NCBI RefSeq assembly: GCF_025024155.1
Contig: NW_026251759.1
Span: forward strand, 124,001-188,000
From: Gamsiella multidivaricata
Taxonomy: Eukaryota > Mortierellomycota > Mortierellomycetes > Mortierellales > Mortierellaceae
Length of the DNA: 64,000 bases
Direction of reading: 5' to 3'
The translations under genes were made by a program, and so were the position numbers. The notes beneath the pieces are model-generated. The model made no database searches and was not told the DNA's origin. It was given only the letters and a program-made list of their open reading frames with translations. Shown here piece after piece: positions 61,840 to 64,000 of the stretch; within the stretch, counting starts at the first letter, position 1; each line of letters starts with the position of its first letter.

Positions 61840-64000
61840 TTAATCGATATACCGGACATCAGCATGTTCGCTCAGGAACTCCATCCACGCCTTCAAAAAC
61901 GGATCGTTCTTGCTCAGTGTCTCAGAGTCTCCGACCACACAGAGCTGCCTCTTGGAACGGGTCATCGCCACTAAAACAATAAGAATCGAGTGCTTATATT
62001 AGTCGTCAGTACTTTACCCACAATGCGGACACCGCCGCGTGCTGTCTGCCCTTACCATTGAGTCGACGGCGGTCAGACAAGAATCCGACCTCTCCAGCAT
62101 CGTTAGAACGAACCAGGGTCAAAATGACAGCCTGCTTTTCGCGTCCCTGAAAGCCATCCACAGTGCCAATTTCAATATCGGGGTAATCCTCTTTCAATAA
62201 TTGTCGCAGCAATGCGTTCTACGAACGTTAGAAATAGAAACAAATGTCAGCCAAGGGGTTGAAAAAGAGTTCATTGGGACCGCATCAACAAACCTTACTG
62301 ACCTGTGCACTATAAGGCGTGATGATGGCAATGTCCTCTGGGCCAACACCAGACTTCATCAAGTCCTTGACATATTCCACCACAGTAGCAGCCTCCCCTC
62401 GGTTCAACTTGCTGTCATCGGGTCCGCCGCCCACGGAAGACCCCCCTGGTCCATTTCCGTCCTGGTTTTCTGTCTCCTCAGTCATGCCAGCCATACTGGT
62501 ATCCAAGAAAACCAACGCATGATCCACGTCGCTTTCTTCCTCGGACGGATCGCGTGCCTTTTTCACCCTCGGCAAATCCTTCAGCAGCCATTGTCGACAA
62601 GATTCGTCCGCAACGAGTAAGTTCTGGTACAATTTCGTGCTCGGGAAAGCCATGATATCCTCGTGCATCCGGTACTGTGTCACTAGAGTTCGCTTAATTA
62701 GCTTGGCACCATCTTTGGGGAAACAGCCCAGGAGTCGCACGAACATCGTGGTCGAGAGTAAGAATGATGAATAGTCCTTGTCCTTGGCGATCCGCTCCAA
62801 ATCCAGTGCAGGGACCTCAAAGGATGCAGAAGCTCCGGCCCTGGCGGCTTTTTTCCTCTGTTCCTTAAGCTCCTTAGTAAGCGAGAGCGCTTCTGCCGCC
62901 AGGAGCGACGTAGCGCTGATTCCCTCTGAAACAATCGTCGGCGGTAACTGTAGATGATCCCCGGCCAAAACCACTTTTGCTCCCTTGCCAATGGCAATCC
63001 AGCATTCCTATCACCATAGCAAATAAACAAATTAATATGTGTATTCCAGTCCTTATGCGCAAAAACGAGCTGTCTGTGCATAGTTTTTGATCACTTACCG
63101 CTGCAGGAAGACGCATAACAGAAGTAAAGAGTTGTGCATGCAGTAAATATATGGGAAAGAAAGGGTCAGTAGATTACGATGGTAGACAGGTATGTAGTGT
63201 TGCGGATTTCCTGCTCAACCACTTTGCGGATCCTTTTGATCATTTACCTTCCAAGGCCTGTGTTGCCTCATCAATAATCACAACATCAAACTTCTCGCCC
63301 CAGAGATTCTTTGCCGCACATCCGTTCAATGTGCTCAAGACCACGCTCGCACTCTGGATCAGTTCCTTGACGACCAGCTTTTCGCGCGCCTTGAAATCCT
63401 TTCGAAGCTGCTTCACCTCCTGATACAGTTGTTTGCGCTCCGAGCGAAATTTGCACCGTTGGATCTTTTGAAAGGTTTCGTCCAGCTCCACACGGATGTC
63501 GTTCACGAGCCTTCCTTGGTCACTGGTCCTGGAGAGCACATCGAGCGAGTGATCCAGCACACTCGGCAGCAGTCGAGCTGGGTGGCCTGTCCTGACAATG
63601 TTGATCCTGTGACTAGCAAGACGCTCCACCAGGTTGTCTATGTTTGAAGACAAAAACCATGAATTGTCTGTTTGAATGTACAATAAAAAAAAAAAATATG
63701 CGGCGGCGATACATGCAGACGGATTCTTCCTTGAGACGTACCCACACTAATGTTGGAGGGCCCACAAACCAAAATCCGTTTCTTTTGCAGGACGAGTTGT
63801 CGAATCAACTCAACCAGCGTAAAGGTCTTTCCTGTGCCTGGCGGTCCATGGATCAAGGCCACCTGCTCTGCGGCCAGTGCGAATCTCACGGCTTCCTGCT
63901 GAGACGGATTCAAAGTCGGGTCCAGAAACTTGACCTTGGAGAGATCAGTCCATGCCTCGTCGAACGTTGGGGTTTGTGCACCGAACAACACGTTTGTCAG
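61840..64000 (-). CDS. HCS1: SF1 (Upf1-like) DNA helicase, HCS1/IGHMBP2 family, 5' end missing
   Basis: Partial gene; the reading frame enters at 64000 in phase 0, so the N-terminus lies beyond the window. Exons are 64000-63742, 63637-63248, a 2-nt microexon 63100-63099, 63007-62303, 62218-62056 and 61970-61840, giving 549 residues to the stop. SF1 motifs in order: Q-motif region LNPSQQEAV, Walker A GPPGTGKT, motif Ib in [10 protein letters not shown], Walker [11 protein letters not shown], motif [15 protein letters not shown], motif [11 protein letters not shown], motif [13 protein letters not shown] and motif [12 protein letters not shown]. These define the Hcs1/SMUBP2 group of 5'-3' helicases. 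The protein ends about 45 residues after motif VI, with no R3H or AN1 domain, as in yeast Hcs1. An acidic/Gly-rich insert lies between motifs IV and V. Confidence 0.94.
63099..63100 (-). other. Putative 2-nt microexon (CG) in the helicase gene
   Basis: The bases CG lie between an acceptor-like CTTCCTGCAG and a donor GTAAGTG. Exon 2 ends in phase 1 (GAA G) and exon 4 begins in phase 0 (GAA TGC TGG). Only two inserted bases restore the frame, giving A-L-E-A-E-C-W-I, the same spacing as ALEASCWI in human IGHMBP2. Without it the frame is lost in the middle of the helicase core. Confidence 0.8.

Follow-up and report, generated by a model that had tools for sequence, protein, structure and literature searches.

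A constitutive exon of a single nucleotide has been proven in Arabidopsis APC11, and that report favours a model in which intron definition acts together with recursive removal (PMC4674806). In APC11 and VPS55, conserved exons of 1 nt are described as absent from plant annotations (PMC8831610), and a constitutive 4-nt exon of MPC1 has been explained by way of exon-definition regions (PMC9929638). In Drosophila, recursive splice sites juxtapose an acceptor and a donor (PMC8605326). Among fungi, stwintrons require a splice element that is interrupted (PMC5639578; PMC8469720; PMC6616335), and Xlr2 of Trichoderma carries a 20-nt switch microexon, that report stating that functional microexons had previously been undescribed in filamentous fungi (PMC11121469). 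Ultra-short spliceosomal exons as such are thus already known; the one described below is real with high probability, and its novelty consists in its occurrence in a fungus, its length of two nucleotides and the age that it likely has in the family. No earlier report of a fungal 2-nt nuclear exon was found in the titles and abstracts of the open-access literature searched, a body of work outside which most subscription papers lie.

The dinucleotide CG at positions 63100-63099 of the window (the whole stretch of 64,000 nucleotides of Gamsiella multidivaricata DNA that was analysed, at 124001-188000 of its contig) is very probably a genuine 2-nt spliceosomal exon, included as a rule, in a Mortierellaceae helicase gene of the SMUBP2/Hcs1 type, and probably an old one in the family. 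The gene consists of 10 exons on the minus strand and has its ends at positions 64968 and 61840 when counted as in the window, with exons 1-4 lying past the right end of the 64-kb stretch, and its nine introns measure 84-147 nt. When the 10 exons are joined with CG included, the result is an intact frame of 730 aa identical to P0001, the public protein of this contig, whose listed contig has the same length of 283,287 bases. As judged from this identity, the published gene model, which may have been guided by RNA or by homology, already includes the 2-nt exon. Compared with SMUBP-2 (PDB 4b3f/4b3g), the joined protein gave an E value of 7.2e-110 with ALEAECWI ungapped against ALEASCWI, and Pfam assigned AAA_11 (PF13086), AAA_12 (PF13087) and the SMUBP-2/HCS1 1B domain (PF21138, 30.1 bits at a cut-off of 27); these comparisons and the nearest-protein searches used a 710-aa form or part of it, the microexon being unaffected. 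A helicase core together with the 1B domain and a best match to SMUBP-2 places the host gene, by sequence comparison, in the SMUBP2/Hcs1 type, and SMUBP-2 as best solved relative and the Pfam domains agree with the Hcs1/IGHMBP2-type identity proposed by an earlier sequence-only reading of this DNA. The 710-aa form resulted from an exon 3 acceptor at 64534, which was dropped when comparison with P0001 placed the acceptor at 64594 and so yielded the public 730-aa form.

Two features of the part of the gene to the right of the window are recorded separately. Exon 3 (L002:4534-4594) has two in-frame acceptors 60 nt apart; P0001 represents the longer form (GGKSLVDLE...) and the Linnemannia exigua model P0003 the shorter one (GGKRLRVG), and the pair possibly gives rise to alternative splicing of 20 residues. 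Exon 4 (L002:4185-4217) is only 33 nt long and absent in some related models (P0012 and P0017), and at either of its junctions 7/31 related models show a flaw.

The junction between exons 6 and 8, which we take to lie between helicase motifs II and III, has the following features inside the window:

Exon 5, part inside the window, 63742..64000, minus strand: helicase motif I region; the model translates exactly to P0001.
Exon 6, 63248..63637, minus strand: 390 nt, ending GCC TTG GAA G (GCCTTGGAAG) in phase 1; equals the public protein P0001 model.
Intron 6 (a), 63101..63247, minus strand: 147 nt, GTAAAT...CTGCAG, starting with GTAAATGATC and ending with CTTCCTGCAG.
AG-free stretch, 63103..63210, minus strand: 108 nt preceding the CAG of intron 6.
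Possible branch site CTGAC of intron 6, 63165..63169, minus strand: 65 nt before the intron end, a consensus-based guess.
Exon 7, 63099..63100, minus strand: the proposed 2-nt microexon CG, completing codon GCG (Ala) in ALEAECWI.
Intron 7 (b), 63008..63098, minus strand: 91 nt, GTAAGT...GATAG, starting with GTAAGTGATC and ending with GGTGATAG.
Exon 8, 62303..63007, minus strand: 705 nt, starting GAA TGC TGG (GAATGCTGG) in phase 0.
Exon 9, 62056..62218, minus strand: 163 nt, in the model that matches P0001.
Exon 10, 61840..61970, minus strand: 131 nt, carrying the stop codon, in the model that matches P0001.

Much of what the sequence-only reading had said of this junction held when the minus strand was read again. 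Its coordinates, 63007-63248, are right to the base and its exon borders are correct, but what it called exon 2 is exon 6 of the 10-exon gene; its claim that direct joining destroys the frame agrees with the exon 6-exon 8 join, a frameshift ending after 441 residues; and its claim that CG brings ALEAECWI to the length of the family agrees with the ungapped alignment to SMUBP-2 and with P0001. All four splice sites around CG (donors a and b, acceptors a and b) are canonical, the dinucleotide standing directly between an acceptor and a donor as CTTCCTGCAG/CG/GTAAGT. That reading had also called the sites around the two bases strong, and in a self-trained scan of 261 kb donor a scored at the 94th percentile, donor b at the 97th, acceptor a at the 76th and acceptor b at the 70th, relative to 118 candidate introns shorter than 200 nt that were collected without RNA check and may contain false introns. 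The AG-free run of 108 nt ahead of acceptor a lies at the 99th percentile of the same introns (median 20, 95th percentile 71) and was matched in 113 of 20,000 shuffles. In intron 7, TTAAT lies 24 nt upstream of the acceptor as a candidate branch site, a guess that, like the CTGAC of intron 6, is weakly placed. Nothing unusual was found in the RNA structure of the 240-nt stretch (z 0.57, with 142 of 200 shuffles folding at least as well).

Arrangements of this kind are rare. An acceptor at least as good as acceptor a and a donor at least as good as donor b flanked 1, 2, 3 or 4 nt in no case among 522,000 strand-bases, and pairs of the same strength occurred once at a distance of 5 nt and never at 8 nt. 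When the genome was searched on both strands (37.5 Mb, 180 contigs), the strict motif YYYYNCAG-NN-GTAAGT (YYYYNCAGNNGTAAGT) had 18 matches including this locus, against 20 for the reversed pattern, and with three nucleotides in the gap the counts were 17 and 16; the strict motif is rare and at background level genome-wide, with no sign in these searches of a genome-wide class of such exons. A repeated or mobile intron (introner) was also considered and rejected, since the 240-nt stretch matches itself only in a genome search that skipped simple repeats and very common words.

The nearest relatives (Dissophora, Linnemannia, Podila, Mortierella, Lobosporangium and the like), which we take to be Mortierellaceae, were compared through their public protein models, namely the 31 listed rows P0002-P0032 with at least 69% identity, a break being an insertion or deletion no more than six residues from a junction. 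A single annotation series supplied many of these models, which therefore do not count as independent evidence. At the microexon junction 21/31 models are broken, against 2/28, 7/29, 7/31, 7/31, 1/31, 0/31 and 2/31 at the other seven junctions. The breaks comprise 10 insertions, eight deletions after ALE, two deletions of the form KFDV-ECWI, in which what we take to be motif II is lost, and one model without the whole left side. Seven of the insertions begin with Gly (GNTKL, GST, GISTND..., GI, GSTDL, GSRLTGIL and GIQ), as they should because run-through from GAAG into a GT donor forces GGT, and two begin with AVS (AVSSS and AVSIG...), as expected when CG is read and the donor GTAAGT is then read through. 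Run-through of one of the two donors would thus account for 9/10 insertions, and the remaining one, ASCEQ, fits an acceptor chosen 14 nt too early. Searches with the two protein halves returned six and seven proteins; the six are apparently exon 8 reading frames from environmental assemblies, and only one of them, the unspliced frame P0121, extends to the left of ECWI, where it reads ...LCCQQECWI, consistent on back-translation with an acceptor CAG directly before GAATGC. No DNA of relatives was found in viral contigs. Among the 10/31 clean models the exon may be absent; Dissophora ornata is represented by a clean model, P0002 (ALEEECWI), and a broken one, P0027, joined by zero-length branches, so that a clean model is no proof that the exon is absent.

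On a midpoint-rooted tree of 35 proteins, many forks of which are poorly supported, broken models occur in Linnemannia, Mortierella, Haplosporangium, Dissophora, Entomortierella, Lunasporangiospora and Podila epigama, and clean models in five core Podila, two Actinomortierella, Lobosporangium, Mortierella sp. NVP41 and one Dissophora ornata. The label broken or clean changes seven times on this tree, compared with a mean of 11.3 in shuffles, and only 4/500 shuffles were as low. Judged from the relatives' protein models, an old origin and a wide distribution of the exon within the family are probable, and our reading of the tree suggests that it was there early and was later lost in core Podila. 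The core Podila models P0011, P0015, P0018, P0019 and P0021 are clean at the microexon junction and that of Podila epigama (P0025) is broken, a contrast that points to the disappearance of one intron or of both in the course of Podila evolution. As a separate observation, P0015 is named Mortierella antarctica (BGZ74) and sits in core Podila, while its namesake P0009 (BGZ75) pairs with M. alpina; P0015 is probably a misnamed strain.

Fungal introns are mostly recognised by intron definition, and each of the two introns flanking CG, having complete sites of its own, would be recognised as a unit. Because pairing at the 5' splice site takes in three bases on the exon side and exon 7 has just two, the final G of intron 6 belongs to donor b as well. 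With two bases between them, acceptor a and donor b could hardly be occupied at once, and since their simultaneous use is sterically implausible the introns would be removed in turn. If intron 6 were spliced out first, the context of the next donor, GCG/GTAAGT, would be unchanged, because exon 6 also ends in G. On these steric grounds the stepwise removal proposed by the sequence-only reading is likely, but recursive splicing of the fly type does not apply, as two bases stay in the message. Splicing with a zero-nucleotide exon was rejected likewise, the two bases between CAG and GTAAGT being needed in the message, and a stwintron was rejected because none of the donors and acceptors is interrupted, CG lying between two complete introns. 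Skipping of the exon or retention of either intron would shift the frame to an early stop (after 399 residues with intron 6 kept and 472 with intron 7 kept), and such products are candidates for decay.

If CG were not an exon, the region could be a single 240-nt intron (63247-63008) in which the frame was broken by an assembly error or by gene decay and the sites around CG were a chance match. Direct joining relies on the identical outer sites, both good, its product is the frameshifted one of 441 residues, and the strict motif does occur in the genome at the background rate; but the remaining gene is intact across 10 exons and equal to the public protein, the chance of the strict motif within a given 240 nt is only about 6e-5, and the break shared by 21/31 relatives' models is something that an error in one assembly cannot explain, all of which makes a single intron highly improbable. 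Intron length was set aside as an argument against it, a 500-nt limit giving a near-even spread of lengths from mostly spurious pairs. Just as hard to credit is another in-frame splice path that dispenses with CG through a non-consensus junction or a site farther upstream or downstream, with residues lost or gained. A scan for single introns with GT/GC-AG borders, in which donors were sought as far as 90 nt into exon 6 and acceptors as far as 135 nt into exon 8, did yield 43 frame-keeping, stop-free options, and two of their shapes recur in public models of relatives, ALE-EGIS in P0020, P0024 and P0027 and KFDV-ECWI in P0013 and P0014. ALEAECWI, however, is kept in none of the 43, conserved residues are deleted in every one of them, several losing what we take to be motif II or III, and the relatives' options vary model by model, as expected of forced guesses. 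Among seven internal exons of the correct length class, five of them stop-free, CG ranked first at 16.0 bits, the next reaching 4.9. The two bases are needed for the frame and fit the family, as the 43 options, the SMUBP-2 alignment and P0001 indicate.

The origin of the microexon is a further matter on which readings can differ, as the two donors carry a repeat:

Donor repeat copy 1, 63234..63248, minus strand: GGTAAATGATCAAAA, of the pattern GGTRARTGATCAAAA.
Donor repeat copy 2, 63085..63099, minus strand: GGTAAGTGATCAAAA, with 14/15 bases common with copy 1.

In the 37.5 Mb of the genome the pattern GGTRARTGATCAAAA occurs twice, both times at the microexon donors, and when candidate donors were compared in 6,903 pairs the closest pair agreed at 12/15 positions, against 14/15 here. 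These facts speak for a recent microexon, in which a copy of one intron's donor gave rise to the other intron and two exon bases were left between, a history that would be compatible with CG being a real exon. Against a recent birth stand the break pattern across much of the tree, the relatives' read-through peptides, which on back-translation do not fit GATCAAAA at either donor, and the similarity of introns 6 and 7 beyond the donor match, which amounts to two 7-base matches; the repeat was, moreover, spotted after the fact, which limits its weight. Because of the tree-wide breaks and the misfit to GATCAAAA, the exon seems older than the repeat, and the best fit is that one donor was copied onto the other at a later time, a recent birth being unlikely. 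Somewhat less likely still is a regulated switch, in which frequent skipping would send a frameshifted message to decay and so set the helicase level; the skipped form is indeed frameshifted, but all four sites are strong, which argues for the constitutive inclusion that we prefer. It is also conceivable, though we regard it as unlikely, that a forced splicing order ties helicase output to spliceosome performance, the skipped message decaying, and that for this reason the 2-nt exon has persisted from the early Mortierellaceae onward, with a loss in core Podila; the locus would then be a natural fungal test bed for how the spliceosome handles an exon too small to define.

If inclusion of CG were confirmed in RNA, the locus would be a 2-nt nuclear exon in a fungus. 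It would offer a tractable case for the order in which two introns with colliding sites are removed. If our reading is right, this conserved helicase has an error at one and the same spot in 21/31 related public models, some of which are left without motif II or III, and gene predictors unable to place an exon of 2 nt damage real proteins.

Seen beside the known systems, the locus most resembles the 1-nt exons of plant APC11 and VPS55, which are likewise nuclear and spliceosomal, shorter than 3 nt, flanked by canonical sites, required to keep the frame, overlooked in annotations and followed by a GTRAGT donor, and which are conserved in a clade, as CG probably is (PMC4674806; PMC8831610). It differs from them in having two bases and in residing in a helicase gene of a fungus, and the plant APC11 exon is proven, whereas CG is read from DNA and protein models. 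The sequence-only reading had placed exons this short near the limit of what a spliceosome can define; given the 1-nt exon of APC11, a 2-nt exon is not beyond known limits (PMC4674806). With the Xlr2 microexon of Trichoderma the locus shares a very small exon and a filamentous fungus as host, but the Xlr2 exon has 20 nt and is switched by glucose (PMC11121469), and CG has 2 nt and is apparently constitutive. Stwintrons, too, are two packed fungal introns, removed in consecutive reactions as is likely here (PMC5639578; PMC8469720; PMC6616335), yet there the inner intron splits a splice element of the outer one, whereas at the CG locus each intron is complete and two coding bases stay. The acceptor and donor that nearly touch, and the likely stepwise removal, recall the recursive splicing of Drosophila, whose ratchet points, unlike CG, lie in long introns and leave no bases behind (PMC8605326); here two bases stay between introns of 147 and 91 nt. 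Finally, the 4-nt exon of MPC1 is also constitutive, made of few bases and not a multiple of three in size, but it has been explained by exon-definition regions (PMC9929638), whereas intron definition is the likelier mode for the CG exon.
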